A stretch of DNA of 64,000 bases from an uncultured Granulosicoccaceae bacterium (GTDB lineage Bacteria > Pseudomonadota > Gammaproteobacteria > Granulosicoccales > Granulosicoccaceae): positions 62,001 through 126,000 of the forward strand of contig CALJAA010000028.1 in the NCBI GenBank assembly GCA_938028465.1. Reading direction: 5' to 3'. Every line of letters begins with the position of its first letter. Positions within the stretch are counted from its first letter, which is position 1. A model generated the notes under the pieces. It was not told where the DNA came from and made no database searches. It saw only the letters and a list, made by a program, of their open reading frames with translations. Made by a program: the position numbers and the translations under genes. This document shows positions 5,020-25,353 of the stretch, piece after piece.

Positions 5020-6117
5020 GTGACTAACCCAACTGTCGCCTTTTATTCTCCGCTTAAGCCACCTGATCATGAGATCCCATCGGGAGATCGTCTAATGGCT
5101 CGCTTATTGATTGATTGTATGGATAGGGCGGGCTATCAAGTAGCCGTAGCTTCCACGCTGCGAGCGTTCGTTAAAAAATCAGATGATGTCACTGCGGTTG
5201 AGCAACTCAAGCATAGTGCTCAATCAGAAATCCAGCGATTGACAAAACTCTGGACGCAGCAAGGTGCGCCTTCACTTTGGTTTTGTTATCACCCTTACTA
5301 TAAATCACCAGATTTAATTGGGCCAGTGTTGTGTAAAGAATTTAACATCCCGTACATCACTGCTGAGGCTAGTTTTTCTCAGCGCCGTACTCAAGGTGTT
5401 TGGGGGTATTTACAGAACCAGGTCGTCAAGTCAATTAAAGATGCGGCGGTCAATATTTGTTTCACTGAGCGAGACAAATTTGGTTTGCGCAACGGTGTTC
5501 CATCTGCCAATTTGCTTAAGTTGCCTCCCTTTATTGATACGACAATTTTTTTGCAACATCCAATCAGTACGCAAACATCTCATTTGGTCACTGTTGCCAT
5601 GATGCGCTCGGGTGACAAGATGAATAGTTATATTAGATTAGCGGCAGCGCTTGAGCATTTACAGCATTTACCGTGGACGCTATCCATTGTGGGTGATGGC
5701 TTATTAAACAGTGAAGTGCGGACACTGTTTGCTAAATTTCCTGCTGAGCGAATCATCTGGCACGGGCGACAAAGCCGTGCTGACATCGCGGCCCTATTTG
5801 CGCGTTCTACTTTGTATGTGTGGCCTGGGTGTGGTGAAGCTTATGGGCTTGCGTACCTTGAAGCGCAAGCGGCAGGTTTGCCTGTTATTGCCTACGATAC
5901 CGCGGGTGTGCCTGAGGTAGTAAAATCGGGATACAGCGGTATCCTCACACCTGTGGATGACGATAAGTTATTTGCAGCAGCTATTGAAAAATTGCTGGGC
6001 GATAAACAAAAGCGAGAACTCATGTCACAACAGGCAAGGTCGCATGTAGAGCGACTGCATGGGTTTGAGCAGGCTAGTTCTGCGCTTGGTTTGCTGCTGC
6101 GAAAACACATTAGATAA
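5020..6117 (+). CDS. Glycosyltransferase, GT4-like (GT-B fold)
   Basis: 365 residues, starting at GTG (5020) with GAGCTGG upstream. The C-terminal half carries the GT4 donor-binding signature: PGCGEAYGLAYLEAQAAGLPV, with the EX7E pair, and AGVPEVV. The N-terminus (FYSPLKPPDHEIPSGDRLMARLL) resembles the acceptor domain of a GT4 subgroup found near polysaccharide deacetylases. Retaining GT4 enzymes transfer a sugar from a nucleotide-sugar to a lipid or glycan acceptor in the cytoplasm. There is no membrane segment. It is 5 bp upstream of a CE4-like deacetylase, so the two probably act on the same glycan. Sugar and acceptor are unknown. Confidence 0.85.
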   Translation: MTNPTVAFYSPLKPPDHEIPSGDRLMARLLIDCMDRAGYQVAVASTLRAFVKKSDDVTAVEQLKHSAQSEIQRLTKLWTQQGAPSLWFCYHPYYKSPDLIGPVLCKEFNIPYITAEASFSQRRTQGVWGYLQNQVVKSIKDAAVNICFTERDKFGLRNGVPSANLLKLPPFIDTTIFLQHPISTQTSHLVTVAMMRSGDKMNSYIRLAAALEHLQHLPWTLSIVGDGLLNSEVRTLFAKFPAERIIWHGRQSRADIAALFARSTLYVWPGCGEAYGLAYLEAQAAGLPVIAYDTAGVPEVVKSGYSGILTPVDDDKLFAAAIEKLLGDKQKRELMSQQARSHVERLHGFEQASSALGLLLRKHIR

Positions 6118-6122
6118 AGTGC

Positions 6123-6875
6123 ATGAGCAATCTTGATACGATGAAACGTTTACAGCACGTATTAACCGAACGTGCCAACGCTGGTTTTCCTGTTCAGTTC
6201 TGGTTGCGTGATGATGATGCGATAGAGCCAACTAAGTCGCTTGATCGATTACTTGATTTGACGGAGCGTTTTGCTGTGCCGATTACCTTGGCGGTTATCC
6301 CTGCACGCGCAGGTGACGCTTTGGCGGAACGTTTAGCGTCACGTAGTGAGGTGGCAGTGGCAGTGCATGGGTGGTCGCACACAAACCATGCGCCAACGAA
6401 TGAAAAAAAACAAGAGCTTGGCATGCATCGTCCTATCGTTGAAGTAGTGGCAGAATTAGAGCGTGGGTATAACGAACTTGCTCAACGACATGCTGAACAA
6501 TTCGTGCCGCTATTGGTACCGCCGTGGAATCGAATTGATGCGGCTATCGTTGAAGCATTACCGAGTGTTGGCTATAAAGCCTTATCAACTTTTGGTGCCC
6601 AATCATCCGATGCTATTTCAATGATGAATACACACATCGATGTGATTGACTGGAAAGGGACGCGTGGTGGTCGATCTATCAATGATCTTTTCTCTGAGAT
6701 GGTCACCTTGGTAGAAAGTACTCGCACACCAATTGGCATACTCACTCATCATTTAGTGCACGATGATCCTGTTTGGCTTTTTTTGGAAAAGCTGTTTGCT
6801 TCAACAACAATGCATGCAGGAGCAAGCTGGGTATCTATTAACACGCTCGTGCCGGCCTTATCTCCACACCCATGA
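6123..6875 (+). CDS. Polysaccharide deacetylase-like protein (CE4/NodB fold), first copy
   Basis: 250 residues. Motifs compatible with the NodB-homology fold are RDDDA (29-33), HGWSHTNH with H82, H86 and H89, and PPWNR (133-137). In CE4 enzymes the aspartate and two histidines hold a metal ion used to remove N- or O-acetyl groups from sugars. The DDD motif differs from the usual TFDDG, so activity is an inference. No signal peptide, so action on a cytoplasmic or lipid-linked precursor is more likely than on surface polymer. It is a paralogue of 17682-18467. The 3' end overlaps the convergent gene 6858-7826 by 18 bp. Confidence 0.8.
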   Translation: MSNLDTMKRLQHVLTERANAGFPVQFWLRDDDAIEPTKSLDRLLDLTERFAVPITLAVIPARAGDALAERLASRSEVAVAVHGWSHTNHAPTNEKKQELGMHRPIVEVVAELERGYNELAQRHAEQFVPLLVPPWNRIDAAIVEALPSVGYKALSTFGAQSSDAISMMNTHIDVIDWKGTRGGRSINDLFSEMVTLVESTRTPIGILTHHLVHDDPVWLFLEKLFASTTMHAGASWVSINTLVPALSPHP

Positions 6876-7826
6876 CTTCCAGGCGAGTAATAAGCCTTTA
6901 TCTTGAGCTTGTGCTTGTTGGCACCAGCGCTCCACGCTAGGTAAGGGTGTTTCCTGAGGGAGCTTGCCTGCAACTAGATCAGCATCAGCAAGTGTTACCG
7001 AGCCCCCGCGAGCCATTAGCGTAAAAATTAACGGCCCAGTTGTCCACCAAGCAGGGGCGTTAGGTAGTGCGTTCATTACATTATGTAGTGTGGTAGTTAG
7101 GCGTTTGAATACCGGATGATTAGGCGGTGTTGCTAACATCGAGTTGGCTAACAGTAAGCCGCCTTTTCCGGTATTGCGCGGTACATCTTCGGCCATGGCT
7201 GTTAGCCCAATCATTGGAATAAAATCGTGAAAGCCTAAATCGTTACGGGTCGGGTACCAATCGCTATCGAGGTACAGGCCACCGAGTTTTTCGAGTATGA
7301 GATAGCGGGCCACATCGACAGCACCGGGGTAGTCACCTTTTTGCAGCATATCTGCGTACACAGGGTTTTCGTTTAGGCCCAGTTCATTCAGATTGTCATC
7401 GTTCCATAATTGATACTCATAGCCTTGCGTCTGGGCATGAGCTTGCCAGGCGTTAGTACCGATTGGCGCATCATCTGGGCCTATCCAGATTTGATGAATC
7501 TTACGCGGAATGGGCTCGCTGTTAGCTTTTGCTATTGCCCGGCGCTCTGCGCTTGTAAACTGCGTGTAGGGGCTTAGCAGCGCCGGTGGTGGGACCAAAT
7601 GAAATTGGTAGCCAATGCTCTGAACGGCGTCTTTTTCAGCCTTGGCAAGCTTTAGAAGGGCTGATTGCAAGCGTCTTGGCAAGCCAAGTGAGGTGTTGTG
7701 GCCCAATAGTTTGGCTTGAGGATCCCTTGAAAGCGCTGTCAGGACCTCCCTAGCCGCTTGAAATTGCCCTTGCATCCGTAGCGTTGCAGCCGCTCTTAGC
7801 TGGTCATTCAGTCTTTTTTTGTCCAC
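6858..7826 (-). CDS. Glycosyltransferase with DXD motif, GT32/OCH1-like
   Basis: 322 residues, GTG start at 7826. The conserved core reads IPRKIHQIWIG, followed by GYEYQLWND, VARYLILEKLGGLYLDSD (DSD as the DXD metal/nucleotide-sugar motif) and later PAWWTTGP. This is the sugar-binding DXD region of GT32-type transferases, which add hexoses to oligosaccharides. About 110 residues before the core are helical and might be a protein-interaction segment. It is the only gene of the glycan region read leftwards. It overlaps the deacetylase gene tail to tail and lies head to head with the ABC transporter operon (112 bp to 7939). Confidence 0.82.
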   Translation of the reverse strand: MDKKRLNDQLRAAATLRMQGQFQAAREVLTALSRDPQAKLLGHNTSLGLPRRLQSALLKLAKAEKDAVQSIGYQFHLVPPPALLSPYTQFTSAERRAIAKANSEPIPRKIHQIWIGPDDAPIGTNAWQAHAQTQGYEYQLWNDDNLNELGLNENPVYADMLQKGDYPGAVDVARYLILEKLGGLYLDSDWYPTRNDLGFHDFIPMIGLTAMAEDVPRNTGKGGLLLANSMLATPPNHPVFKRLTTTLHNVMNALPNAPAWWTTGPLIFTLMARGGSVTLADADLVAGKLPQETPLPSVERWCQQAQAQDKGLLLAWKSWVWR

Positions 7827-7938
7827 GCGTGATCCACAATTCAGGGCAATAACTTAGTTAAACGGCCCTATTACGATCATGTTATCTTGTGGTGTCCGTT
7901 TCGCAAAGCCTATCAACAGTTAAAATATCGTTTGGGTC

Positions 7939-9852
7939 ATGTCCGATCAGTTAAATCCAAAAACAGACCTACTACGAATTGAGAACCTTGCGGTTAGGTT
8001 TCCATTGCCTGGTGGTCACCTGGATGCAGTCAAAGGTGCCAGCCTGAGAGTGTTGCCGGGCAAAGTCACTGCGCTGGTAGGCGAGTCGGGCTCTGGTAAG
8101 TCTGTTATTAGCCAAGTCATTATGGGCCTGCAACCCGCGACGGCTGACGTCACAGGGCGGGTTCTATTTAGTGATCCAGCTGAGCCGGGGTCTGTGCAAG
8201 ATATGGTGACCTTGCCTCACGATGGAATCAAGATTCGATCCATTCGCGGTCGGCGCATCGGCATGATTTTTCAAGAACCCATGACCTCTTTCTCGCCGTT
8301 GCACACGGTGGGTAATCAGATATCAGAATTGCTAAACGAACATACACTGATGTCGCCTGCACAGCAGCGTAAGCGTTGCGAAGAAATGTTAGGGCTTGTC
8401 GGGTTTGAGCATCCGGCTAAGGTGTTTGATATGTATTCGTTTGAGTTGTCAGGAGGCATGCGGCAACGGGCGATGATTGCTATGGCTTTAATATGCGAGC
8501 CTGCTTTGCTTATTGCAGATGAACCTACGACTGCATTGGATGTAACGATACAAGCGCAAATTTTAAATCTGTTACGTGATCTTCAGTCTGAACTGAAGAT
8601 GGCGGTTCTGTTGATTACACATGATCTTGGCGTTGTGGCCAATATGGCTGATGAAGTCTCTGTTATTTATCATGGTGAGATTATGGAGTCAGGTTCGGTG
8701 GATAGTATCTTTCGATCTCCATCGCATCCGTATTTAAAGGGCTTGATGGGAGCTATTCCTCATTTCGGAATGGCTAGAGACACACGGCTAAAACCATTAC
8801 GTGATATTGAAACGAATGTTGATCATTTGCTCGACAAATTATCCGCGCCGCCAAAGCAACAAGATTCAAAGCCTGACATCATGTTGTCAGTTAAAAATTT
8901 AAGCAAAACTTTCGTCACACGAAAACAGGATTGGCAGGTGCGCGAAACCGTTAAGCCAAAGCCTGCCGTAGATAACGTTAGCTTCGATATTCGTCGCGGT
9001 GAATGCCTTGGTTTAGTGGGTGAAAGCGGCAGCGGCAAAACAACCTTAAGCAAAATTTTGATGCATGCGGTTACACCTGATAAGGGTAGTGTGAGTTTTG
9101 ATGATGGTAGTGGTTCGGTTGATGTTCTTGCCGCTAGAGGGGCTGAACTTAAAGCGCTTCGCACTAAAATACAGATGATATTTCAAGATCCCATCTCGTC
9201 ACTATCGCCTCGTATGTCGGTAGGCAATATTTTGCGAGAGCCTTTTGAAATTCATCAACGTGGCACCGTCGAGCAACGCAATATCGCTATTACGGCGCTG
9301 CTTAACGCAGTGGGTTTAGGCGATAGCGCATTGCAACGTTACCCGCATAGCTTTTCAGGTGGGCAACGTCAGCGTATAGGGATTGCTCGTTCATTAGCTA
9401 TTGCACCTAGCCTAATAATTTGTGATGAACCCGTATCGGCCTTGGATGTATCAGTACAGGCCCAGGTGCTCAACTTGCTTAAAGATTTGCAAAAAGATAT
9501 GGAGCTTACGTATCTGTTTGTATCGCATAATTTGTCGGTAATTGACTACATGGCAGATAGGGTCGCGGTTATGTGGGCGGGTAAGATTGTTGAACTCGCT
9601 TCGCGTGATGTCATCATGAATGACCCGGTTCACCCCTACACCAAATCATTGATGAATGCTGTTCCTTTTCCTGATCTTGATCGCCCTTTAGATTTTGCCG
9701 CAGCTGGAAAAGCCAGTTCAACCTCATCAAAAGAGTGGGCTGACGTTTTTCGTGGCGATGATGAGCCGGGTTCGCTTGCCAATCTGGATTTAGGAAATGA
9801 TCATTTTGTTCTAGCGCGGAGCACGGCCGACTTTAAGGAGTTACGAACTTGA
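7939..9852 (+). CDS. Oligopeptide-type ABC importer ATPase with two nucleotide-binding domains (YejF-like)
   Basis: 637 residues carrying two complete ATPase domains. The first has Walker A GESGSGKS (48-55), signature LSGGMRQR and Walker B LLIADEPTTALD. The second, from about residue 315, has GESGSGKTT, FSGGQRQR and LIICDEPVSALD. Each is followed by the Opp/Dpp C-terminal extension (HPYLKGLMGAIP; HPYTKSLMNAVP). Such fused proteins (YejF, DdpD/F types) energise uptake of peptides or small glycopeptides. The stop overlaps the start of the binding-protein gene (TTGA), indicating translational coupling. Substrate cannot be read from the ATPase. Confidence 0.93.
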   Translation: MSDQLNPKTDLLRIENLAVRFPLPGGHLDAVKGASLRVLPGKVTALVGESGSGKSVISQVIMGLQPATADVTGRVLFSDPAEPGSVQDMVTLPHDGIKIRSIRGRRIGMIFQEPMTSFSPLHTVGNQISELLNEHTLMSPAQQRKRCEEMLGLVGFEHPAKVFDMYSFELSGGMRQRAMIAMALICEPALLIADEPTTALDVTIQAQILNLLRDLQSELKMAVLLITHDLGVVANMADEVSVIYHGEIMESGSVDSIFRSPSHPYLKGLMGAIPHFGMARDTRLKPLRDIETNVDHLLDKLSAPPKQQDSKPDIMLSVKNLSKTFVTRKQDWQVRETVKPKPAVDNVSFDIRRGECLGLVGESGSGKTTLSKILMHAVTPDKGSVSFDDGSGSVDVLAARGAELKALRTKIQMIFQDPISSLSPRMSVGNILREPFEIHQRGTVEQRNIAITALLNAVGLGDSALQRYPHSFSGGQRQRIGIARSLAIAPSLIICDEPVSALDVSVQAQVLNLLKDLQKDMELTYLFVSHNLSVIDYMADRVAVMWAGKIVELASRDVIMNDPVHPYTKSLMNAVPFPDLDRPLDFAAAGKASSTSSKEWADVFRGDDEPGSLANLDLGNDHFVLARSTADFKELRT

Positions 9853-11759
9853 TTACACGGCGCAAAATGCTCGGGCTGTTGGCGTCGGCGACCATTCCCG
9901 GCACCTTGCATGCAACTGCCGATGCGACAGAAGACCACGCCTTATTTCGCGAACGTATTGATGCAGGTGAATTACCGGAGGCTGCGGCCCGTCTTCCCCT
10001 TAATCCTCGCGTGATTAACCTGCAATCGATGGGGCGCGAACCTGGAGTGCATGGCGGCAAAATAAGAATCCTGATTGGTCGCCAAAAAGATATCCGATAT
10101 GTGCCCATCAATAGTTACTCCAGGCTAGTTGGCTACACTGAACAGTTAGAGATGGTGCCCGATATTCTTGAATCGTATACCGTTAAGGAAGGCAGAATAT
10201 TTACATTACGTTTGCGGCCTGGTCATCGTTGGTCTGATGGCAGTGCGTTCACATCCGATGATTTTAAATACTTCTGGAACGATGTTGTTCTCAACAAAGA
10301 AATTCTCCGCGGTGGCGCGCCGGTTGGATTAAAAGTCAACGGCGAGGTTGCAAAGTTTGAAGTGCTCGATGAACTTACGGTTCGTTACACTTGGTCTCTA
10401 CCAAATCCTCGATTTTTGAGCAGGCTGGCTGGCCCGATTCCGCAAACCTTAATGTTGCCTGCGGCGTACATGAAGCAGTTTCACGCTAGCTATCAAACTG
10501 CCGAAAAGCTTGCAGAGTACATTAAACAATACCGAGTTGATGATTGGGTAGGATTGCATCGCAAACTGTCGCGGCAAAATCGGCCTGAAAACCCAGATCT
10601 TCCAACGCTTGAAGCTTGGCGTCCGCGCACGCGGCCACCGGCAGAGCAATTTGTATTTGAACGTAACCCGTACTTTCATCGTGTTGACGAGAATGGTAAG
10701 CAGCTGCCCTATATTGATCAAATTGTTATGAATGTGAGTTCGACAGAGATCATCGCCGCGAAAACGGCTACAGGGGATAGCGATTTACAAGGTGTTGGTT
10801 TAGGGCTTCCCGACTACACACTCATAAAAGAATCTGAAAAACGCTTTCCGATCAAGGTGTCGTTATGGCGACGAACCCAAGGCTCTAGTGTTGCGTTGTT
10901 TCCAAATTTAAATTGCGGTGATTCAGTCTGGCGCCCGCTATTTCAAGATGTGCGTGTGCGGCGAGCCATGTCGTTGGCTATCAATCGTCGAGAAGTTAAC
11001 CAAGTGCTCTATTATGGGCTTGCGCACGAAAGTGCGGATACGGTGCTGCCAGAGAGCCCATTATTTAAACCCGAATATGCAGCGGCCTGGTCAAGCCATG
11101 ATCCCGAACAAGCTAACCGATTACTAGATGAAGTCGGATTAGTTAAGCGCAATGGTGCGGGCATAAGATTGTTACCCGACGGTCGGCCTGCCAATATAAC
11201 CATCGAGTCAGCGGGCGATCGCACGTTAGAGACTGATGTTTTGGAGCTTATTACCGACTACTTTCGGCAAATAGGCATTGCCTTGTTTATACGCAGTTCC
11301 CAAAGAGATATCTTTCGCAGCCGGATCATGGGTGGGAGTGTGATGATGTCGGTTTGGAGGGGGCTAGATAATGGTTTGCCGTCCGCCGATATGGCGCCCA
11401 CTCTATTAGCGCCTACCAGTAATGATCAATTGCAGTGGCCTGTATGGGGGCTGCATTATATGTCGGCTCAAACGCAAGGCAAAGCGTCTGATATGCCTTA
11501 TGTAAAGGAACTCAGCGAGCTTCTCGATAGCTGGATGCTTTCCACTAGCACTGACGAGCGCAGCGATATATGGGCCCGCATGCTGGCCATACATGCCGAT
11601 CAGGTGTTTTCCATCGGCACGGTTAATGGTGGCTTGCAGCCGCTCGCGCGCTCATCAAGCCTGAGGAACATACCCGATCAAGGTTTGTATGGGTTTTCTC
11701 CAACCAGTTATCTTGGTGTTTATATGCCTGATACTTTCTGGTTAGAAAAAGAGAGTTAG
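9849..11759 (+). CDS. Periplasmic solute-binding protein, family 5 (YejA/Opp-like), Tat-exported
   Basis: 636 residues, TTG start overlapping the preceding stop by 4 bp. The N-terminus MITRRKMLGLLASA has a twin-arginine motif (TRRKMLG), so export by the Tat system is likely. The body is a type-5 binding protein: LRPGHRWSDGSAFTSDDF, the segment FERNPYFHRVDENGKQLPYID, and RVRRAMSLAINRREV. Family 5 proteins bind oligopeptides but also oligosaccharides, opines and other compounds. The position inside a glycosyltransferase operon suggests, but does not prove, a sugar-containing ligand. Permease genes follow after 2 bp. Confidence 0.92.
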   Translation: MITRRKMLGLLASATIPGTLHATADATEDHALFRERIDAGELPEAAARLPLNPRVINLQSMGREPGVHGGKIRILIGRQKDIRYVPINSYSRLVGYTEQLEMVPDILESYTVKEGRIFTLRLRPGHRWSDGSAFTSDDFKYFWNDVVLNKEILRGGAPVGLKVNGEVAKFEVLDELTVRYTWSLPNPRFLSRLAGPIPQTLMLPAAYMKQFHASYQTAEKLAEYIKQYRVDDWVGLHRKLSRQNRPENPDLPTLEAWRPRTRPPAEQFVFERNPYFHRVDENGKQLPYIDQIVMNVSSTEIIAAKTATGDSDLQGVGLGLPDYTLIKESEKRFPIKVSLWRRTQGSSVALFPNLNCGDSVWRPLFQDVRVRRAMSLAINRREVNQVLYYGLAHESADTVLPESPLFKPEYAAAWSSHDPEQANRLLDEVGLVKRNGAGIRLLPDGRPANITIESAGDRTLETDVLELITDYFRQIGIALFIRSSQRDIFRSRIMGGSVMMSVWRGLDNGLPSADMAPTLLAPTSNDQLQWPVWGLHYMSAQTQGKASDMPYVKELSELLDSWMLSTSTDERSDIWARMLAIHADQVFSIGTVNGGLQPLARSSSLRNIPDQGLYGFSPTSYLGVYMPDTFWLEKES

Positions 11760-11761
11760 CC

Positions 11762-12760
11762 ATGTTTCGATACATTATTTGGCGCATTCTTACCATGATA
11801 CCCACACTGCTGATTATCTCGGCATTGGTGTTTGTCATCATCGAATTACCACCGGGTGATTATTTTGAAAGCCATGTGGCAGAGCTTCGTGCCCAGGGCG
11901 AATCCGCTGATCTTGCCGAAATAGAAATGCTCAAAGAACGCTACGGTTTTGATAAGCCGATGGTGGTGCGTTACGCCCATTGGCTCGGTGGCATGCTTGT
12001 GGGTGATTTTGGCTATTCGTTTGAATACCGCTTGCCAGTTAATGAAGTAGTAGGTGATCGGCTTTGGTTAACTATTTTAGTCTCGGTAGTGACCATCACA
12101 TTCACTTGGTTGATCGCGTTTCCAATTGGCATCTACTCTGCGACGCACCAGTACAGTTGGGGCGATTACGGCCTCACCTTCATTGGCATGATAGGTATAG
12201 CCATACCTAATTTTATATTGGCTTTGGTGATGATGTACTTGGCTAATATTTGGTTCGGTACCTCGATTGGTCATTTGATGGACCGTGAGTATTTTAATCA
12301 ACCGATGTCCTGGGATAAATTTGTTTCTATTCTCGAGCATTTGTGGATTCCTGTTCTGATTATCGGTACAGCAGGCACGGCGAGCATGATCAGACGCTTA
12401 CGAGCCAATTTGCTGGACGAACTGAAAAAACAATATGTCATCACTGCGCGCTCCAAGGGATTAAAACCGAGGAAGGTACTGTTGAAGTATCCACTGCGTA
12501 TGGCGCTCAATTTTTTCATCTCCGATATTGGCTCAATTTTACCGGCGGTAATCTCTGGTGCTGAAGTTACGGCTATTGTGTTGTCTCTGGAGACGACAGG
12601 GCCAATGTTAATCAAAGCGCTGCAAAGCCAAGATATGTATCTGGCTGGATCATTCCTGATGTTCTTAGCGTTTCTTACGGTGGTTGGTGTGCTGGTGTCG
12701 GATATCGCATTAGCGATATTGGATCCTCGCATACGATTTGGTGCGGGGCGTCATAGATGA
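11762..12760 (+). CDS. ABC importer permease, first subunit (YejB/OppB-like)
   Basis: 332 residues with about six membrane segments, starting MFRYIIWRILTMIPTLLIISALVF. A large periplasmic loop follows helix 1, as in OppB/DppB. The EAA loop is visible around LRANLLDELKKQYVITARSKGLKPRKVL and would contact the ATPase. It pairs with the next gene to form the transmembrane channel. The stop and the next ATG overlap by 4 bp. Confidence 0.93.
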   Translation: MFRYIIWRILTMIPTLLIISALVFVIIELPPGDYFESHVAELRAQGESADLAEIEMLKERYGFDKPMVVRYAHWLGGMLVGDFGYSFEYRLPVNEVVGDRLWLTILVSVVTITFTWLIAFPIGIYSATHQYSWGDYGLTFIGMIGIAIPNFILALVMMYLANIWFGTSIGHLMDREYFNQPMSWDKFVSILEHLWIPVLIIGTAGTASMIRRLRANLLDELKKQYVITARSKGLKPRKVLLKYPLRMALNFFISDIGSILPAVISGAEVTAIVLSLETTGPMLIKALQSQDMYLAGSFLMFLAFLTVVGVLVSDIALAILDPRIRFGAGRHR

Positions 12761-15222: not shown

Positions 15223-15251
15223 CCGATAAAAAGCCCAAGCTTCGTCGCAAG

Positions 15252-16475: not shown

Positions 16476-17653
16476 TGACGGATGGCCCAGTATTGCGAGT
16501 GATGTTTTATGTGCAGCATCTTCTTGGTATTGGGCACCTGATGCGAGCTCGCCGAATTGCACTAGCGCTTCATGCAAATGGAATTCACGTAACGCTTGTA
16601 ACCGGTGGGTTGCCTGTCGCAGGTTTTGAATCATCGGGTGTGGATCAAATTGCGTTACCACCACTGGCCGTAAGCGATGGCAACTTTAGTGCCTTAGTCG
16701 ATGGTGAAGGCGTGCCAGTCGATGAGGCTTATAAAGATAACCGTCGCGCGCGCTTGCTGGAAGTGTTTGGTCGTATACGTCCGGACATTGTAATGCTAGA
16801 GGCGTTTCCCTTTGGTAGGCGTCAGCTCCGCTTTGAACTGTTACCCTTAATTGAAGCCATACAAGCTAGCGAACCTAAGCCATTGCTTGTTACATCAATT
16901 CGAGACGTATTGCAAAGGCGCAGTAAAGCCGGTAGAGATGAAGAAACGGCTGATACCGTCAATTCATATTTTGATAAAGTATTGGTTCATGGTGATCCGA
17001 ATTTCACACCGCTTGAAGAAACGTTTCCATTAGCGGATGCCATTGCTGATAAAATTGCATATACCGGGCTCGTGTGCGGGCCGGTGCCTAAGCTTTCTAG
17101 CGAATCGTATTCTGTTGTCGTGTCAGCAGGTGGTGGGGCGGTTGGGTCAGATTTATTAAACGCATCGATAGAAGCAGCTGCGCTGCTACCACAAATTGAA
17201 TCATGGTGTGTTATTGCGGGGCCATACTTGCCGCGACATGAGTATGAAGCGCTAGCGAATCACGCTCCAGCTAATGTCACCGTTGAACGATTCAGAGCCG
17301 ATTTTACTAGTTTGCTTGCTACAACCGAGTTGTCAATATCTCAAGCTGGGTACAACACGGTTAGTGATGTGCTGCAGGCGCAGTGCCGTGCACTGTTGGT
17401 GCCCTTTAGTTCGCATGGTGAAACTGAACAGGCAGATAGGGCGGTAAGGTTGCAGCAACTTGGGCTAGCCACGGTGGTGCCCGATGACCTACTAATGGAT
17501 AAACGGTCGTCTGGCCAAAAACTAGCGTCGATCATTAGTACAAGCATGGCTACAGAATCAGCAAAACAATCAATCACTATTGATTGCGACGGTGCAAATG
17601 GCACAGCAAGCGTTTTACAAAGCCTAATCAGGCCGAAAGGGATGAATACTTAG
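16475..17653 (+). CDS. Predicted glycosyltransferase, COG4671/GT28-like, second copy
   Basis: 392 residues from the ATG at 16475, which overlaps the previous stop (TAATG) and has GGAG nine bases upstream; an in-frame ATG at 16460 lacks such a site. Motifs match the copy at 13933: VMFYVQHLLGIGHLMRARRIALAL, VVSAGGGAVGSDLL, ISQAGYNTVSDVLQAQCRALLVP. The two copies are clearly paralogous but diverged, so different sugar or acceptor preferences are likely. Function is inferred from fold only. Confidence 0.8.
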   Translation: MTDGPVLRVMFYVQHLLGIGHLMRARRIALALHANGIHVTLVTGGLPVAGFESSGVDQIALPPLAVSDGNFSALVDGEGVPVDEAYKDNRRARLLEVFGRIRPDIVMLEAFPFGRRQLRFELLPLIEAIQASEPKPLLVTSIRDVLQRRSKAGRDEETADTVNSYFDKVLVHGDPNFTPLEETFPLADAIADKIAYTGLVCGPVPKLSSESYSVVVSAGGGAVGSDLLNASIEAAALLPQIESWCVIAGPYLPRHEYEALANHAPANVTVERFRADFTSLLATTELSISQAGYNTVSDVLQAQCRALLVPFSSHGETEQADRAVRLQQLGLATVVPDDLLMDKRSSGQKLASIISTSMATESAKQSITIDCDGANGTASVLQSLIRPKGMNT

Positions 17654-17681
17654 TTCATCAACTGATGAGATAATAGAATGG

Positions 17682-18467
17682 ATGGGTACGCGTATCACTG
17701 CTGACGAAAATAATTGGGCGCAACTGGAGTCTGAGCTGGATGTCTGGGCTGCAAGCGGGCGTGTAGCCAATTTTTGGTGGCGAGATGATGATGCAGCCGC
17801 GCCTGGGCCAAAGCTTGACCAGCTGATTGATATCACCCAATCGACGGGGCTTCTACTGGCTGTAATCCCTAGTCGATTAGAACCTACTTTGAAATCCACT
17901 CTTGCGCAAACCCCTCATGTTCAAGTGGCGCAACATGGGTATGCACACATCAATCATGCGCCTAGAGGGCAAGGCTTAGGTGCTTGGGAGCTTGGGCTGC
18001 ATCGTGGCATCGATAAGGTCATGGCAGATCTTGACGCAGGACGCAGGCGCTTGGAGGATCAATTCGAGTCACAGTTTTTGCCCGTTGTCGTCCCACCGTG
18101 GAATCGTATTGCGCCCGAACTGCTCCAGCCGATTGCATCTCGAGGTTACCGAGGTGTATCTGCGTTTGGGCCTCGCTTAGCCGCTCAGCCTGAGCCGGGC
18201 TTGAGGGTTATCAATGCGCATTGTGACCCAATAAGGTGGAAGTCAGAAACTCGTTTCAGAGGTGTCGATAAAGTTATCGCACAACTCGTGGAGCATTTAC
18301 AGGCACGACGTAATGGTACAGTTGATTCGGAAGAAGCCACTGGTTTTTTAACCCACCATATTGATCTTGATGCGGCTGGCTGGGAATTTAGCGCTCGTTT
18401 GGCTGAGTTGATTGACCATCACGCTGCAGCGCAATGGTGTGCGCCTAAAGAATTATTTTTGTCATGA
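17682..18467 (+). CDS. Polysaccharide deacetylase-like protein (CE4/NodB fold), second copy
   Basis: 261 residues. It shares with 6123-6875 the motifs RDDDA (34-38), HGYAHINHAP (H85, H89, H92), the segment ELGLHRGIDKV, and PPWNR (138-142). No signal peptide. The same fold-based inference of sugar deacetylation applies. Spacing of 28 bp to the upstream gene and 22 bp to the GNAT gene keeps it in the operon. Two diverged copies within 12 kb suggest two deacetylation steps or two acceptors. Confidence 0.8.
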   Translation: MGTRITADENNWAQLESELDVWAASGRVANFWWRDDDAAAPGPKLDQLIDITQSTGLLLAVIPSRLEPTLKSTLAQTPHVQVAQHGYAHINHAPRGQGLGAWELGLHRGIDKVMADLDAGRRRLEDQFESQFLPVVVPPWNRIAPELLQPIASRGYRGVSAFGPRLAAQPEPGLRVINAHCDPIRWKSETRFRGVDKVIAQLVEHLQARRNGTVDSEEATGFLTHHIDLDAAGWEFSARLAELIDHHAAAQWCAPKELFLS

Positions 18468-18489
18468 GTCAACTAACTGAGTAAAGGGT

Positions 18490-19365
18490 TTGAGTAAAGG
18501 ATTTGTCAGAAACGCAGAATATAGCGATGCAGAGGCTATCTGTTCGCTCCTGCATAACAAAATGAACAGCCGTATTCCGGTTGAGTATTGGCGTAGGCTT
18601 TTTGACTATCAATGGCTTGAAGCCAAACCCGACTTTGGCCGTGTTGTTGAAGCGGATGGGCAAGTACTGGGCTATTGTGGAATGGTTTACGCCGATCGTA
18701 TGGTCGGTGAGGGTAATCAACTGCGTCAGGAGCGCATTGTTAGTATGAGCTCTTGGTACCTAGATAAATCGTTGCGTGGACAAGGGCTTGGCCGAGATAT
18801 GCTGATATCGTGTATCGCTGATCCAACGCTCACCTATGCCACGCTAACGAACTCGAAAAAACCCTTGGGTATTGTGGAGTCGCTCGGTTTTAAAGTGCTG
18901 GAAGATCATCGCTATATCTGGCGTAAGACCAACCAATCACACGATGGAGTGTTTATCACTACCGACAAACAAGCCATTTGTCATCGTATTAATACGCACC
19001 AGCAGACGCTCATGAATGATATGCAGCCGTATTCACTCACACCACTGCTGGTGGAGCTTGATGGTGCGCAATCGTTAGTGTTTTTTTCGATTAAGCGAAA
19101 AGCGGCCGATGTGTTGTGGTATGACTTAATGTACGCCAGCAATCAAGCACTCTTCGTTAGCTGTGCATCCGCCCTGGCTGATCAGCTGCTGCCTGATTCA
19201 CCCGCCGTGCTAGCCGCGGATGGCCGGTTCGTTAAACAAGCGCCGACAGGTGTAACAACAGAGCGCTTACCCGTAGCGCGTTATTATGTCAGTCAGCGCG
19301 TTGTGCCGCACGAAATAGATCACTTGTACAGTGAATTACAATTACTCGATCTGAAGTTGGATTAA
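18490..19365 (+). CDS. GNAT-family N-acyltransferase
   Basis: 291 residues, TTG start at 18490 after AAAGGG. The N-terminal 150 residues have a GNAT fold: FVRNAEYSDAEAICSLL (beta1-alpha1), SSWYLDKSLRGQGLGRDML with the acetyl-CoA pyrophosphate motif RGQGLG, then SLGFKVLEDHRYIW. The C-terminal 140 residues are unassigned. GNAT enzymes move an acyl group from acyl-CoA to an amine. Next to two deacetylase-like genes, it could re-acylate an amino sugar, though that is inference only. Confidence 0.78.
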   Translation: MSKGFVRNAEYSDAEAICSLLHNKMNSRIPVEYWRRLFDYQWLEAKPDFGRVVEADGQVLGYCGMVYADRMVGEGNQLRQERIVSMSSWYLDKSLRGQGLGRDMLISCIADPTLTYATLTNSKKPLGIVESLGFKVLEDHRYIWRKTNQSHDGVFITTDKQAICHRINTHQQTLMNDMQPYSLTPLLVELDGAQSLVFFSIKRKAADVLWYDLMYASNQALFVSCASALADQLLPDSPAVLAADGRFVKQAPTGVTTERLPVARYYVSQRVVPHEIDHLYSELQLLDLKLD

Positions 19366-19372
19366 GCAACAA

Positions 19373-21661
19373 ATGAAAAACTACAGTGGATACAAAACTA
19401 TGAAAGGTATTCGAACCGCAGCAATGCTGATTGGCATAGTCATGTTGTTGAGTGCCAATATCAATGTCCACGCACAAGAGCTTTCCTTGTCCTCAAACAC
19501 GGCGGAGTCAGCAGTTGAATTGTCCGATATTGACAATCCGGAAGCAGTAAGAGCACTGGTGTCTCGATTGTCTGACAGCGAGGTTAGAGACCTGTTGTTG
19601 CAACAGCTGGATGTGGTTGCTGAAAAACAGAATACCGAAGCTGAACCTGATCAAATCAGTTTGTTTAGTCTCATCACCACGTATATCCCGATTTCAGTTG
19701 GGGCATCGATCGAAAATTTCCCTAATATGATTTCCGATCAGACGAAGGTGTTTCGTTTGTTTATCAAAAGTCTTGAGCCGGATGGCTGGTTGAAATGGTT
19801 AGGTATGTTTCTCACGGCAATTGCGGCCGGTGCTCTGGTTGAATATCTGGTCAGGCAACTCACACATCGGTGGCGATTAACCGTAGATGATTTCTCCTCA
19901 AATCATTCGCTGTTAGAAACATTAAGAATTCTCTTTAGGCGGTTGATTCTTGATTTGTCAGGTTTGATTGCATTTATTGTTGTGTCGCAGTTTGTGTTAA
20001 AGCAATTGGTTGATCCCAGCTCGCACTACATTACTCATCACATGCTATGGAATATCATACTTATCCCAAGATTATTTTCTGTGATATTGAAATTTGCATT
20101 TGCACCGCAACGCGCGGATTTACGGCTGATTCACACCAGTGATGCTTCGGCAAAGTTCTTACATAGGCATCTAGTTGGTGTTGCATTGTTTGTGGGCGTT
20201 TTCTTATCCGTGTTAGACCTCCAAAGAGTACCCGGTGCGGAAAATATCCAATCCAGAATTGGTTTTGTCGTGAACTTGGCGATTCACCTTTACTTTGCTT
20301 TTATCGCCTGGCATTCACGTTACGCTTTAATCGATATTATCAACGGTAAGAACGATGATGCCACGCCAATGGAAAAAACCGTAGCAAAGCTATACCCATA
20401 TTATGCTCTGCTGGTTATTGTAAGCAGTTGGATATTGGTTCAGTTGCTGGTAGCGCAGCATAAGTTTGAACTGGTCCAAAAGGGTGTTCAGTATTCCACG
20501 ATGTTTATTTTATTACTTGCGCCCATCATGGATACCGTCGTCCGAGGGCTGGTGAAGCATTTGACTCCAGAAATAAGCGGCGAGGGTGTCATGGCTGAAC
20601 AGGCCTACGAATCCACCAAACGTAGCTATATACGCATTGGCAGGCTACTCGTTGTACTGATTGTTTTGGCGTGGCTCACTTGGATCTGGGAAGTCGATCT
20701 TGCGAATATGAACACGGCTGATATCGGTGCGATAAAGACTCAACGGTTTATTGGTTTTATCGGGATTATCGCCGTGGGTTACTTATGTTGGGAAATAGTG
20801 ACACTTTGGCTAAATCGAAAACTAGCGGCAGAAAACACCTCGCCAGATGGTGCGGTTGAGTCAGCGGTTCCCGGTGGCGACGGCGGTGGCCCGGGAGGTT
20901 CACGGTTATCCACTGTGTTGCCATTAATAACCTGGTTTGTGCAAGCTGGCATTATCATCATGACCGTGCTCATGGCACTGAGTGATCTCGGCATCGATAC
21001 CACGCCACTGTTGGCCGGTGCTGGTATCGTAGGTCTTGCGATTGGCTTTGGCGCGCAAAAGTTAGTTGGCGATATCGTATCGGGTTTGTTTTTTCTGATA
21101 GATGACGCGTTCAGACAGGGCGAATACGTGAATGTGGAAGGGACCATGGGCACGGTGGAGAAAATTTCCCTGCGTGCCATGCAATTGCGTCACCATCGTG
21201 GGCCGATTCATACCATCCCCTATGGGGAAATCCCAAAGATCACCAACTACTCAAGGGATTGGACGATCATGAAGTTGCAATTCACGGTGCCATTTGAGAC
21301 CGATTTAATTAAGGTCAAAAAGATCTTTAAAAAGATAGGTCAGGATTTACTCGAACATCCCGAGTTTGGCGATGATTTTTTCAGCCCGTTTAAATCTCAA
21401 GGTGTTGTGCAGGTGGATGATGTGGGTATCGTGTTGCGCGGTAAGTTCATGGTTAAGCCTGGAAAGCAATTCATGATTCGTAAAGAAATATTTGCGCGAG
21501 TGCAGAAAGATTTCGATGCAAACGGTATACAGTTCGCTCGAAAAGAGGTGCGTGTTAAATTGGATGGTGGAAACCAGAATGGTGCAGAGCTGTCCGAGGC
21601 TGATAAAACCACAATCGGTGCGGCTGCATCTGAAGCAAGTGAAGAAAAGCCGATTACCTAA
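19373..21661 (+). CDS. Large MscS-family mechanosensitive channel (YbiO/MscK-like)
   Basis: 762 residues. A signal peptide (or first helix) ends near NVHAQ at residue 35, followed by a periplasmic helical region and about ten membrane segments. The MscS pore helix and beta domain are LLAGAGIVGLAIGFGAQKLVGDI (from residue 546) and GEYVNVEGTMGTVEKI, then HTIPYGEIPKITNYSRDW. MscS channels open under membrane tension to release solutes during hypo-osmotic shock. Start may be 19373 or the Met codon at 19400; neither has a strong ribosome site. It is 8 bp after the GNAT gene and 46 bp before the ABC-like gene, so it is part of the operon. This could link the glycan to osmoadaptation. Confidence 0.88.
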   Translation: MKNYSGYKTMKGIRTAAMLIGIVMLLSANINVHAQELSLSSNTAESAVELSDIDNPEAVRALVSRLSDSEVRDLLLQQLDVVAEKQNTEAEPDQISLFSLITTYIPISVGASIENFPNMISDQTKVFRLFIKSLEPDGWLKWLGMFLTAIAAGALVEYLVRQLTHRWRLTVDDFSSNHSLLETLRILFRRLILDLSGLIAFIVVSQFVLKQLVDPSSHYITHHMLWNIILIPRLFSVILKFAFAPQRADLRLIHTSDASAKFLHRHLVGVALFVGVFLSVLDLQRVPGAENIQSRIGFVVNLAIHLYFAFIAWHSRYALIDIINGKNDDATPMEKTVAKLYPYYALLVIVSSWILVQLLVAQHKFELVQKGVQYSTMFILLLAPIMDTVVRGLVKHLTPEISGEGVMAEQAYESTKRSYIRIGRLLVVLIVLAWLTWIWEVDLANMNTADIGAIKTQRFIGFIGIIAVGYLCWEIVTLWLNRKLAAENTSPDGAVESAVPGGDGGGPGGSRLSTVLPLITWFVQAGIIIMTVLMALSDLGIDTTPLLAGAGIVGLAIGFGAQKLVGDIVSGLFFLIDDAFRQGEYVNVEGTMGTVEKISLRAMQLRHHRGPIHTIPYGEIPKITNYSRDWTIMKLQFTVPFETDLIKVKKIFKKIGQDLLEHPEFGDDFFSPFKSQGVVQVDDVGIVLRGKFMVKPGKQFMIRKEIFARVQKDFDANGIQFARKEVRVKLDGGNQNGAELSEADKTTIGAAASEASEEKPIT

Positions 21662-21706
21662 TGTCAATTTTTTAAGTCACGTATTAAACCTCAAAGAGAG
21701 TAGGTA

Positions 21707-24700
21707 ATGGAAAAGAGCATTTTTGGATTCATTTGGAAATACTCAAAAAAGAATCAGCTCACTTTGCTGTTTGTTACGCTACTGACCTTTCCGATTCTGT
21801 ACGTAACGCTTGAACTGCCTAAACGCATCATCAATGATGCGATAGGTGGCTCAAATGAGGGCGTTGTCATTCTTGGGGTTGCACTGACTCAGATTCAGTT
21901 TTTATTGGTTTTATGCGCTGCATTTTTGTTGGCTGTTCTGGTAAACGGGCTACTAAAGATGCGGCTGAACACCATGAAAGGGGTGCTCGCAGAACGCTTA
22001 CTTCGCCGATTTCGCTATCAACTCTTAACGCGTGTCTTACGATTTCCACAGCCTTATTTTCGAAACACTAGCCAAGGTGAATTGGTTTCTATGGTTACAT
22101 CGGAAGCTGAGCCTTTAGGCGGAATGATGGGCGATATGTTATCCCAGCCGATCCTTCAGGCAGGCCAGATGTTAACCATATTGGTTTTTCTTTTTGCACA
22201 GAGCGTCTGGTTTGGATTAGCAGCGATTGCACTTATACCATTGCAAGCTTGGATCATCCCGATATTGCAGCGTCAAATCAATTTGCTGAACAAGGGCCGA
22301 ATTCAGGAGGTACGTAAACTCGCCTCTGATATCGGTGAGACAGCGGCAGCGGTAGGAGATATTCGAACTAACGGTGGGTCGCGATACCGCATGTCGTTAT
22401 TCTCTGATCGCTTGGGTAAGTTATACGACATTCGATTTGAAATTTATCAGAAGAAGTTCTTTATGAAATTTCTGAATAATTTCATCAATCAATTGACACC
22501 CTTCTTTTTTTATTCTGTTGGTGGTTATCTTGCGATCAAAGGGCATATTACGGTTGGTGCTCTGGTAGCGGCGTTAGCAGCATTTAAAGATATGTCTTCG
22601 CCATGGAAGGAACTATTATCTTTTTACAATGCTACGCAGGACGTTGCTGTGAGATGGGAGACGGTCACTGAACGTTTCGCATCGAGCCCGCTAGTAGATG
22701 ACAGCCTGTATGAAGGTACGCCAGAAGGTGCTCCCGATCTAAAAGGGGACATCGACATTCGTAACGTGACGATTCGAGATGAAGAAGGTAAAACAGTTTT
22801 AGAGGATATTAATCTGTTGATACCGCAAGGTGCTCGTGTTGCGGTTAAAACCGAGAATGAAACGTCAGCCTTAGCGTTTGCCAACTTGCTTGTGCGTGAA
22901 CTGATTCCGCAACACGGAACCGTTACTATAGCGGGGCAGGATCTAAACACCATACATCAAGTGACGCTGGCTAACAGCATTGGCTATGCGCATTCTAACC
23001 CTCAAATTTTAGAGGGCACGCTAGGCGAAAATCTTCTATTGCCTTTTAAAAACAAGCCCATTGGGGAAATCGATCGAGATGATCAGGGCTACAACGAATT
23101 TCAAGAAAAAGCTGAACAATCTGGAAATAGCATCGATCCCTTTGATTCTAATTGGGTTGATCCTACTGTTGCTGGTTTAACTTCCTCAGATGAAATAAGG
23201 GAGTGGTGGTTCAAGTTGGTGCAGGCTATGGGCATCGATGATTTTATGGTACGCCGCGCTTTGCGCTCTCTTATCGTCGTATCAGAACATCAAGCATTGG
23301 CTGATGCTATCGTTAAATTAAGACCTGAGATCGCCGAGCGATTAGCTGAAGCCGGGTTAGATGATGTTATACATGGTTTTCATCCTGATAAATTTAATGT
23401 TGTATCACCGTTAGGTAGTAACCTTCTCTACGCTTTGCCCACTCGTGCAATAACGCAATTGTCCTTATCGCAAGACGACAATTTTATTCGTATTATTCAT
23501 GAGCAAGGTATTGGTGACGAACTGATGGAAATGTCGGTCACATTGATAGAAAATCTAACTGCGACGTTTGGTACTGATGGTACAGATCATCCACTGTTTC
23601 GTCGGTTGAATCTTGATGAGGGGTTGTACTATCGCTTGGGTGCGATCATAAAAAAGCGGCGTGAGATAGGTGATTCGGGGCTCCCAGCTGAGGATTATGG
23701 CCTAATGCTCACCGTGCCCTTTGCTTTTTCAGCCGAACAAATGGGCCCAGCGTTTAGTGATGAGTTTAAGGAGCGTGTGCTGGAGATCCGTAAAACAAGC
23801 GCGGAACAAATGGTTCAAGAATTAGATGGGTTGTTCGAAACTATTGACCCACAAAAGTACATTCCAGTAATGACGTTGCTTGGCAATGCAATTTTTGGGC
23901 GGGTGTCGAGGGTGGCTGGTTCACGCGAAGCCAAGATCGAAGACATCGTTGTTGAAGTCTTGAGTAAGCATAACTTGCGTCGACTGGCTGCGGAGTCTAT
24001 TCATGATCTTGTCACTTCAAGTGGTGGTAGTAACTTACCTGCCGTCTTTAAAGAACGTATTGCCTTTAGCCGAGCAGGAATTAAGAAGCCGGATATTCTA
24101 ATCCTGGCAAACTCACTTGCCAGTCATGATAGTGATGAGCGCGCAAAAATGCGAGAGCGCGTTACTAAGTTGATGCCCGACACAACCATCATTTTCATTG
24201 AGAAACAGATTCGAAACCCAGAAAGATACGACATGTATGTTGAGATAGTTGATGGGCGAATCGATGGTGGCGTTAAGCAAGAAGTACGGCAAGACTCAGA
24301 TGCGCGCCAGGATCTCGATCGAAAAATCTCGGCACTTGCAAAGACAGAATTATTTGGCGAGCTGGATCGTAAACAACAACGCCTACTTGCTTTTGGTGCG
24401 CAGTGGTATAAAGCTGAAGCCAATCAAAAAATCTTTGTAGTGGGGGAGGAGGCAGATGCCGCATTTTTGTGCATCAAAGGTTCTGCGGGTTTGTATTGGA
24501 CACCTGATGAGGAGAATGGTGAAGCCCGTATGGTATCGGAAGTTACGCCTGGGCGATTAATAGGCGACTTATCCATTTTTCTAAAAGAACAACGTGCACT
24601 CGACCTTATCGCCTTGGAGCAAAGTGTGTTTCTACGTATTGATGCAGGCGACTTGATGGATGTTATTGAACACGATGCGAATCTGGCGACCAGTTTAATG

Positions 24701-24805
24701 CGATCAGTATCTCGAAACTTACTGGGGGCGGTAGACACCATCACCAAGCTACGATCGTTTTCCATTGAACGAGGGGTCGATTTCTCAGAGTTTGATAACA
24801 GTTAA
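21707..24805 (+). CDS. ABC-exporter-like protein with decayed ATPase motifs, a large insertion and a C-terminal cyclic-nucleotide-binding domain
   Basis: 1032 residues. Residues 1-330 form a type-IV ABC exporter membrane domain, including the coupling region LRRFRYQLLTRVLRFPQPYF. The ATPase domain begins near 350 (IDIRNVTIRDEEGKTVLEDINLL), but the P-loop position reads KTENETSA (381-388) with no GxxGxGK. The Q-loop reads YAHSNP, the signature is SSGGSNLPAVFKERI (771-785), Walker B DILIL is followed by ANS instead of DEA (801-803), and the H-loop His is replaced (EK at 832-833). About 310 residues are inserted between the Q-loop and signature. Residues about 870-1000 form a CNB domain with a phosphate-cassette-like PGRLIGDLSIF and an Arg six residues later. 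ATP hydrolysis is therefore unlikely. A scaffold, sensor or flippase-regulator role is possible. It is the last gene of the operon. Confidence 0.85.
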   Translation: MEKSIFGFIWKYSKKNQLTLLFVTLLTFPILYVTLELPKRIINDAIGGSNEGVVILGVALTQIQFLLVLCAAFLLAVLVNGLLKMRLNTMKGVLAERLLRRFRYQLLTRVLRFPQPYFRNTSQGELVSMVTSEAEPLGGMMGDMLSQPILQAGQMLTILVFLFAQSVWFGLAAIALIPLQAWIIPILQRQINLLNKGRIQEVRKLASDIGETAAAVGDIRTNGGSRYRMSLFSDRLGKLYDIRFEIYQKKFFMKFLNNFINQLTPFFFYSVGGYLAIKGHITVGALVAALAAFKDMSSPWKELLSFYNATQDVAVRWETVTERFASSPLVDDSLYEGTPEGAPDLKGDIDIRNVTIRDEEGKTVLEDINLLIPQGARVAVKTENETSALAFANLLVRELIPQHGTVTIAGQDLNTIHQVTLANSIGYAHSNPQILEGTLGENLLLPFKNKPIGEIDRDDQGYNEFQEKAEQSGNSIDPFDSNWVDPTVAGLTSSDEIREWWFKLVQAMGIDDFMVRRALRSLIVVSEHQALADAIVKLRPEIAERLAEAGLDDVIHGFHPDKFNVVSPLGSNLLYALPTRAITQLSLSQDDNFIRIIHEQGIGDELMEMSVTLIENLTATFGTDGTDHPLFRRLNLDEGLYYRLGAIIKKRREIGDSGLPAEDYGLMLTVPFAFSAEQMGPAFSDEFKERVLEIRKTSAEQMVQELDGLFETIDPQKYIPVMTLLGNAIFGRVSRVAGSREAKIEDIVVEVLSKHNLRRLAAESIHDLVTSSGGSNLPAVFKERIAFSRAGIKKPDILILANSLASHDSDERAKMRERVTKLMPDTTIIFIEKQIRNPERYDMYVEIVDGRIDGGVKQEVRQDSDARQDLDRKISALAKTELFGELDRKQQRLLAFGAQWYKAEANQKIFVVGEEADAAFLCIKGSAGLYWTPDEENGEARMVSEVTPGRLIGDLSIFLKEQRALDLIALEQSVFLRIDAGDLMDVIEHDANLATSLMRSVSRNLLGAVDTITKLRSFSIERGVDFSEFDNS

Positions 24806-25210: not shown

Positions 25211-25353
25211 GGCTGTCATACCCAGTGGGGCACTCACGTCCCGCGAAGGCTGGGATCCATGCACACGATTAGCTTCTCCGTATGCTAGATTCCCGCCTAC
25301 GCGGGAATGACAAATCTACTCGGGACATGAGTGCCCCACCAGGTATGACAGCT
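25211..25353. repeat. Composite inverted-repeat element (33-bp arms, MITE/REP-like)
   Basis: The left arm 25211-25243 and right arm 25321-25353 are reverse complements at 29 of 33 positions; each contains GTGGGGCACTCA. The 77-bp centre holds a further palindrome of ATTCCC-N8-GGGAAT type (25289-25308) and a degraded copy at 25239-25259. Such elements are dispersed non-coding repeats in many proteobacteria. There is no coding potential. The element fills most of the bolA-ppiC spacer (25122-25420). Confidence 0.8.
25289..25308. repeat. ATTCCC-N8-GGGAAT palindromic repeat (dRS3-like), copy 1
   Basis: ATTCCCGCCTACGCGGGAAT, a 20-bp palindrome nested in the larger inverted repeat. The same format recurs at 29744-29763. 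It resembles dispersed intergenic repeats known from Neisseria (dRS3) and other proteobacteria. Confidence 0.75.

Follow-up and report, generated by a model that had tools for sequence, protein, structure and literature searches.

Gene content and layout of the cluster

The subject of this study is a gene cluster in a 64,000-nucleotide stretch of DNA (here called the window) from an uncultured Granulosicoccaceae bacterium, whose assembly comprises 4.1 Mb and is 88.8% complete. The original prediction placed 14 genes at 5020-24805 of the window and read them as an operon for the synthesis, transport and sensing of a glycan; open reading frames were found at exactly those positions, and their families were assigned by Pfam. 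Eleven co-directional genes on the forward strand (7939-24805) form a block with intergenic gaps of -4, 2, -4, 0, 29, -16, 28, 22, 7, and 45 bp, as tight as had been proposed. The block begins with a complete Opp-type importer (solute-binding protein, two permeases and two ATPase domains by Pfam): a fused double ATP-binding cassette (ABC) ATPase, OppDF (7939..9852; PF00005 twice, oligo_HPY), the family 5 solute-binding protein SBP5 (9849..11759; PF00496), and permeases of the OppB type (11762..12760; PF00528) and OppC type (12757..13932; PF00528, OppC_N). It continues with the glycosyltransferases GT28a (13933..15222; PF04101, a COG4671/GT28-type GT-B enzyme), GT4b (15252..16475; PF00534, family GT4), and GT28b (16460..17653; PF04101, a GT28-type GT-B enzyme). 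These are followed by the CE4-like deacetylase CE4b (17682..18467), which carries the full CE4 residue set and is 36% identical to its paralog CE4a, a GNAT acyltransferase (18490..19365; PF00583), and a large MscS-type channel (19373..21661; PF00924, PF21088, PF21082). The last gene (21707..24805; PF00664, PF00027) encodes an NTPase-dead type IV ABC "exporter" with a C-terminal cyclic nucleotide monophosphate (cNMP)-binding domain, designated pseudo-ABC.

Upstream of the block lie GT4a (5020..6117, forward; PF00534), a GT4 glycosyltransferase that also scores, weakly, above the PF20706 threshold (GT4 of conflict systems), and the CE4-like deacetylase CE4a (6123..6875, forward; PF01522). Between this pair and the block, an optional member encoding a GT32-like glycosyltransferase (6858..7826; PF04488 with DXD) is inserted convergently on the reverse strand. 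Beyond the span of the original prediction, a 603-aa metallophosphoesterase (MPE; PF00149) is encoded on the reverse strand at 3191..5002.

Domain searches of the window proteins detected no Wzx/Wzy, synthase or nucleotide-sugar enzyme within the block. As the original prediction had argued, the locus is not a standard Wzx/Wzy, ABC-capsule or synthase locus: neither a flippase or polymerase, nor a KpsMT-type exporter, nor a processive synthase was found in the block. The accompanying statement that no export porin is present is accurate only inside 5020-24805, because a Porin_4 outer-membrane protein (Pfam) is encoded just upstream, at 2130-3050. Since its homologs (39-52%) are located at either end of the cluster in several Granulosicoccus genomes, this protein may be the outer-membrane part. 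Scans for promoters and terminators gave signals at chance level. Genes for a MinC C-terminal protein and a MinD/ParA-like protein (65-1402) constitute the chromosomal flank of the cluster. On the other side, at 25225-25339, lies a 115-bp element whose 18-bp ends are imperfectly inverted copies of each other (GTGGGGCACTCACGTCCC); its end occurs in nine genome copies at no more than 3 mismatches, compared with two for a control pattern, and it looks like a small repetitive element.

Conservation of the cluster as a unit

To compare the cluster among genomes, GT28a was used to scan genome contigs, yielding 80 loci onto which all window proteins were then mapped. Synteny was counted in the 71 loci from outside Granulosicoccus that were 15 kb or longer; these counts are not independent events, because the loci were selected by GT28a similarity and many come from close Rhizobiaceae relatives. 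The genes OppDF-SBP5-OppB-OppC-GT28a-GT4b-GT28b were collinear on a single strand in 66 of the 71 alphaproteobacterial loci, and pseudo-ABC lay within the fetched stretch in 57. This gene order is common to Agrobacterium, Rhizobium, Sinorhizobium/Ensifer, Brucella grignonensis, Phyllobacterium, Pseudooceanicola, Paracoccus and others. GT28a was 60-67% identical to its Rhizobiaceae counterparts and was followed directly by GT4b in every sampled locus of this main layout, GT28b being the third member of the triad; GT28a and GT4b are annotated as "redA" and "redB" in R. etli CIAT 652, and literature searches on COG4671 and on redA/redB returned no papers. A second layout, with a second GT4, mostly a histidine phosphatase, and usually MscS, was found in Sulfitobacter, Ruegeria TM1040, Azospirillum, and two Rhodobacterales-type genomes.

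The remaining genes recur in the same surroundings. The GT4a-CE4a pair is also present in Agrobacterium, Sinorhizobium, Pseudooceanicola and others, and the GT32-like gene occupies an identical position and orientation in Agrobacterium loci, its place being taken by an MBL-fold gene in S. meliloti. GNAT follows CE4b throughout Granulosicoccus, and a GNAT and CE4 pair also occurs in the Sulfitobacter locus. MscS was found in Sulfitobacter, Ruegeria TM1040, S. meliloti, and the two Rhodobacterales-type loci, and homologs of MPE (35-42%) adjoin the cluster in Rhizobiaceae. A UDP-glucose/GDP-mannose-type nucleotide-sugar dehydrogenase lay beside the cluster, within the fetched stretch, in 51 of the 71 alphaproteobacterial loci. 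The original prediction had treated the lack of a nucleotide-sugar enzyme as a clue to function; the lack itself is real within the block, but its value as a clue is doubtful because of this adjoining dehydrogenase. Neither a nucleotide-sugar dehydrogenase nor a cyclase was detected at 2130-24805; this is an accessory feature and not part of the core, and 20 of the 71 loci lack it too.

Co-occurrence was further assessed, by using Fisher tests, in 27 genomes of the window's genus. OppC was present in 14 of these genomes and CE4b in 15; pseudo-ABC and MPE were each present in 16, and DUF3095 in 10. All 14 OppC-positive genomes carried OppC, CE4b, pseudo-ABC and MPE (in genome G314, with the paralog CE4a as the CE4 match), DUF3095 was confined to cluster-positive genomes, and ten genomes had none of the five. 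The exceptions were G299, lacking only OppC, G335, with pseudo-ABC only, and G311, with only a 74-residue fragment of MPE. Given this shared presence/absence profile, MPE belongs to the system. Across 299 Pseudomonadota genomes, GT28a was found in 21 of the 22 that bear pseudo-ABC (p ~5e-28). In three genomes with pseudo-ABC elsewhere, OppC and GT28a were still only about 5 kb apart; OppC was missing from three genomes whose GT28a is only distant (30-36%). OppB was the most conserved gene (pN/pS 0.035).

These combined data strongly support the conclusion that the cluster genes form one system. Independent occurrence of the genes in relatives, examined as the outcome that would speak against such a system, gave way to joint presence or absence and a kept order. 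That the genes are unrelated neighbors, joined by chance or on a recent island and separately transcribed, is thus most improbable. The inverted GT32-like gene, and the shifts in position of pseudo-ABC and of the GT4a-CE4a pair between genomes, could be cited in its favor; it is contradicted by the joint presence/absence and by an order kept across bacterial orders, and chance clustering is excluded by the conserved gene order in other genomes.

In a midpoint-rooted tree of concatenated OppB-OppC-GT28a-GT4b, 11 Granulosicoccus sequences formed one clade (support 100). This clade fell within Alphaproteobacteria, and its neighbors there were Pseudooceanicola, Paracoccus, and a metagenome bin (support 99). 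Because the Granulosicoccus clade is nested in this manner, the simplest reading of the tree is that its cluster was acquired horizontally, from an alphaproteobacterium by a gammaproteobacterium.

The pseudo-ABC protein and its possible cyclic-nucleotide link

The motifs of pseudo-ABC were surveyed in an alignment of ~75 homologs. The Walker A lysine was gone in all but four of them, and in nearly all the Walker B Asp/Glu was replaced (e.g., FNRPLSALD; ILANSLAS in the window protein) and the LSGGQ signature motif was missing; the window protein lacks all three motifs. Compared with its closest relative, the window gene had a pN/pS of 0.15, like its neighbors, and a dN/dS of about 0.05 with dS near saturation. 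The original prediction had regarded this gene as a decayed exporter. Decay was rejected on the grounds that the motif losses are family-wide and the gene is under purifying selection; as judged from the alignment, pseudo-ABC is a conserved family with degenerate motifs.

An AlphaFold2 model of pseudo-ABC (pLDDT 80, pTM 0.63) contained six long helices, a nucleotide-binding domain interrupted by ~280 residues of inserted helical structure, and the cNMP domain. When the model was searched with Foldseek, type IV exporters were matched with low global TM-scores, probably because of domain placement and the insertion. Pseudo-ABC thus has the fold and the six transmembrane helices in common with type IV ABC exporters such as MsbA, PCAT1 and TmrAB, but differs from them in lacking the catalytic motifs and in having the ~280-residue insertion and the cNMP domain. 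A literature search for ABC proteins of this kind returned no matches.

The window protein is 65% identical to Sulfitobacter copies. Granulosicoccus relatives carry a shorter, Rhizobium-like pseudo-ABC inside the operon; in the window's own genome, a Rhizobium-like copy is encoded on another contig, and there is also a third paralog. These two extra paralogs (L071 on contig G000:C7 and L191 on G000:C79) each lie beside a separate cNMP-binding gene, and an integrase gene is located near one of them. In rhizobia, too, the cNMP domain is a separate adjacent gene. The Arg of the phosphate-binding cassette is kept throughout the cNMP domains, and the separate rhizobial proteins keep both Glu and Arg. 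Adenylate/guanylate cyclase genes are present in rhizobial loci, with weaker matches beside a pseudo-ABC paralog in several Granulosicoccus. In three loci of other Granulosicoccus (L193, L194, L199), cyclase-like genes accompany a pseudo-ABC of the C7 type, with DUF3095 alongside in two.

The presence of a cyclase and of cNMP-binding proteins in orthologous loci fits the proposed combination of synthesis, transport and sensing, and from these sequences it is reasonable to infer that the system may be under cyclic-nucleotide control. A more specific scheme can be offered only tentatively, and we regard it as rather doubtful: pseudo-ABC would be a regulatory transporter of a new kind, gated by a cyclic nucleotide instead of being driven by ATP, and would be coupled to a saccharide-specific Opp importer returning glycan fragments, so as to form a loop of synthesis, recycling and sensing.

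The PPP locus of S. meliloti and the predicted product

It was reported previously that nine genes between smb21252 and smb21271 of S. meliloti are required for an uncharacterised surface polysaccharide, the phazolicin-protecting polysaccharide (PPP) (Travin et al. 2023, PMC10128002). Insertions in smb21252-smb21271 genes led to a strong fitness loss under the peptide antibiotic phazolicin, and the minimum inhibitory concentration of phazolicin for smb21252 and smb21265 mutants was 0.18 µg/mL, 8-fold lower than the reference value of 1.47 µg/mL; the authors interpreted the phenotype as a polysaccharide barrier against external antibiotics (PMC10128002). The authors also cite a screen with pyocyanin in which Agrobacterium orthologs featured. 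During Myxococcus predation, seven of the nine genes rise (PMC10315480).

On S. meliloti pSymB, the order is MscS, GT4a, CE4a, an MBL-fold gene, DUF3095, nucleotide-sugar dehydrogenase, cyclase, and polysaccharide lyase, followed by OppDF, SBP, OppB, OppC, GT28a, GT4b, GT28b, a methyltransferase, pseudo-ABC, and the cNMP protein. SMb numbers were assigned by gene order together with the published labels (SMb21247 deacetylase, 21248 aminotransferase, 21249 sulfotransferase, 21250 GT, 21257 cyclase). The aminotransferase, PIG-L deacetylase and sulfotransferase genes upstream of the locus fit SMb21247-21250, the cyclase of the locus fits SMb21257, and, since the gene order agrees with the published numbers, the GT4a ortholog is SMb21252 by position. 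By this gene-order comparison, the S. meliloti counterpart of the window cluster matches smb21252-smb21271, the PPP locus, and it is plausible that the nine PPP genes are the core cluster genes listed here. SMb20804-20813, considered as a counterpart, was rejected on gene order; those are KPS/msbA genes. The published work on the Clr regulon concerns the neighboring nodP2-smb21248 cluster, not the PPP-type locus. Between the window and the PPP locus, the transferases, the deacetylase, the Opp/SBP genes and pseudo-ABC agree in both identity and order. The rhizobial locus differs in having a nucleotide-sugar dehydrogenase, a cyclase, a DUF3095 gene, a polysaccharide lyase and a separate cNMP protein, whereas CE4b, GNAT, GT32 and the fusion of the cNMP domain are peculiar to the Granulosicoccus side of this comparison. 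The description of the system as new therefore stands for its chemistry and most of its gene list, but not for the locus, which has been published as PPP. Likewise, the proposal of a small cytoplasmic glycan is doubtful, because the published phenotype concerns external antibiotics; by orthology to PPP, a surface glycan is supported as the product class.

Some features of the glycan may be read from the orthologous loci. A polysaccharide lyase gene is present in the S. meliloti and Phyllobacterium loci (PF14099 in the S. meliloti copy), and this gene together with the dehydrogenase suggests a uronic-acid sugar; the glycan is thus probably acidic. Both deacetylases look active, because their CE4 residues are conserved: D30-D32, H82/H86, PPWN, D173, and H209/H210 of CE4a are invariant or nearly so (45 sequences), and the CE4 residues of CE4b are invariant (44 sequences). 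The metal-binding Asp-His-His and the catalytic residues expected of a CE4 deacetylase are present. SBP5 has an N-terminus (TRRKMLG) resembling a Tat signal; its nearest functionally characterised relative is the pectin-binding SPH1118 (E 1.8e-61), and it is also near an alpha-galactoside-binding protein among characterised proteins, in keeping with an acidic glycan. Sequence searches of the PDB with GT28a, CE4b and the lyase yielded no informative matches.

The kinship of SBP5 to SPH1118, and the position of the Opp genes as the most conserved part, would also suit a system centered on uptake, in which SBP5/OppBCDF import acidic oligosaccharides from the environment (pectin-, alginate- or kelp-derived) and the transferases and deacetylases remodel them. 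We consider this unlikely: no catabolic enzymes (glycoside hydrolases, uronate pathway) accompany the core, and transferase mutants have an envelope/antibiotic phenotype (PMC10128002). The window resembles SPH1118 and Opp-type importers in having a family 5 SBP with Opp permeases and ATPase, but its SBP5 keeps only part of the uronate-binding residues and its genes are linked to synthesis, not to degradation.

A sister cluster offers a further comparison. It combines COG4671, two GT4 genes, an ABC exporter and APH-like kinases, and was found on the Escherichia plasmid pla1 (L158) and, in related form, in a Granulosicoccus (L069, G316) and in genome G329 (L068). Homologous GT28a and GT4b stand there in the same order as in the window, along with an ABC exporter protein and, on the Escherichia plasmid, a nucleotide-sugar dehydrogenase. 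The sister cluster differs from the window in the intact Walker A and signature motifs of the plasmid exporter, an AlgE-like outer-membrane protein, and two APH-like kinases; the AlgE-like gene is present in two of the three loci, and the plasmid copy has it together with the dehydrogenase. No Opp importer orthologs were seen in the sister loci where they were looked for. Export of the sister-cluster product is supported by the intact ABC exporter and, on the plasmid, by the AlgE-like protein.

GT28-type enzymes classically use membrane lipid acceptors, and the top NCBIfam match of GT28b is MurG. In line with this, and with the lack of any polymerase, synthase, Wzx/Wzy or chain-length gene, the product might be a membrane glycolipid, with three or four sugars on a monogalactosyldiacylglycerol (MGDG)- or lipid II-like acceptor and the dead ABC protein as a partner in scrambling or scaffolding lipid-linked sugars. 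We consider this alternative possible but less likely: some orthologous loci contain a polysaccharide lyase, and the published phenotype was read as a polysaccharide barrier (PMC10128002).

Taken together, these data favor, with some confidence, the reading that the window's cluster is orthologous to the PPP-type locus of Alphaproteobacteria, was acquired horizontally, and serves the synthesis of an acidic surface glycan with cyclic-nucleotide-linked control and recovery of fragments. We infer the glycan chemistry, the direction of transport, the binding of cyclic nucleotides and the role of the dead ABC protein as follows. GT28a, GT4b and GT28b, with GT4a and optionally GT32, would build a short or repeating glycan from UDP-sugars at the inner membrane, and the CE4 deacetylases and GNAT would tune the acylation of its amino sugars. 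The glycan would end at the cell surface as a barrier, while OppDFBC and SBP5 might take back its saccharide fragments, or a precursor. Pseudo-ABC, presumably unable to hydrolyse ATP by the normal mechanism, would have a conformational or regulatory role as a partner protein; a cyclic nucleotide would set its state, and glycan production would in this way be tied to signalling.

Several observations weigh against this reading. The text of PMC10128002 does not name the nine genes, so that the Opp and pseudo-ABC genes are at most putative members of the required set. The window has none of the dehydrogenase, lyase and cyclase genes seen in rhizobial loci, no DUF3095 gene turned up in its assembly (88.8% complete), and pseudo-ABC is unlinked to the rest of the cluster in some Rhodobacterales. 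In the cNMP domain fused to the window's pseudo-ABC, Asp stands at the position usually taken by Glu. Of the four Arg residues that are key in SPH1118, SBP5 keeps only two; it has Phe in place of Trp594, and has as its top PDB match an "oligopeptide" SBP with no assigned ligand.

Overall, a locus known from an antibiotic screen in Sinorhizobium is now tied to a widespread, horizontally mobile alphaproteobacterial system, ranging over Rhizobium, Sinorhizobium, Agrobacterium, the Brucella group, roseobacters and Azospirillum, and to a marine gammaproteobacterium. As far as the literature consulted shows, pseudo-ABC with its cNMP partner, MPE, MscS, and CE4/GNAT are new to its gene list, and the structure and control of a protective glycan are now open to direct tests. 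If cyclic-nucleotide control is borne out, a conserved ABC exporter of this ATPase-dead kind would be unusual.

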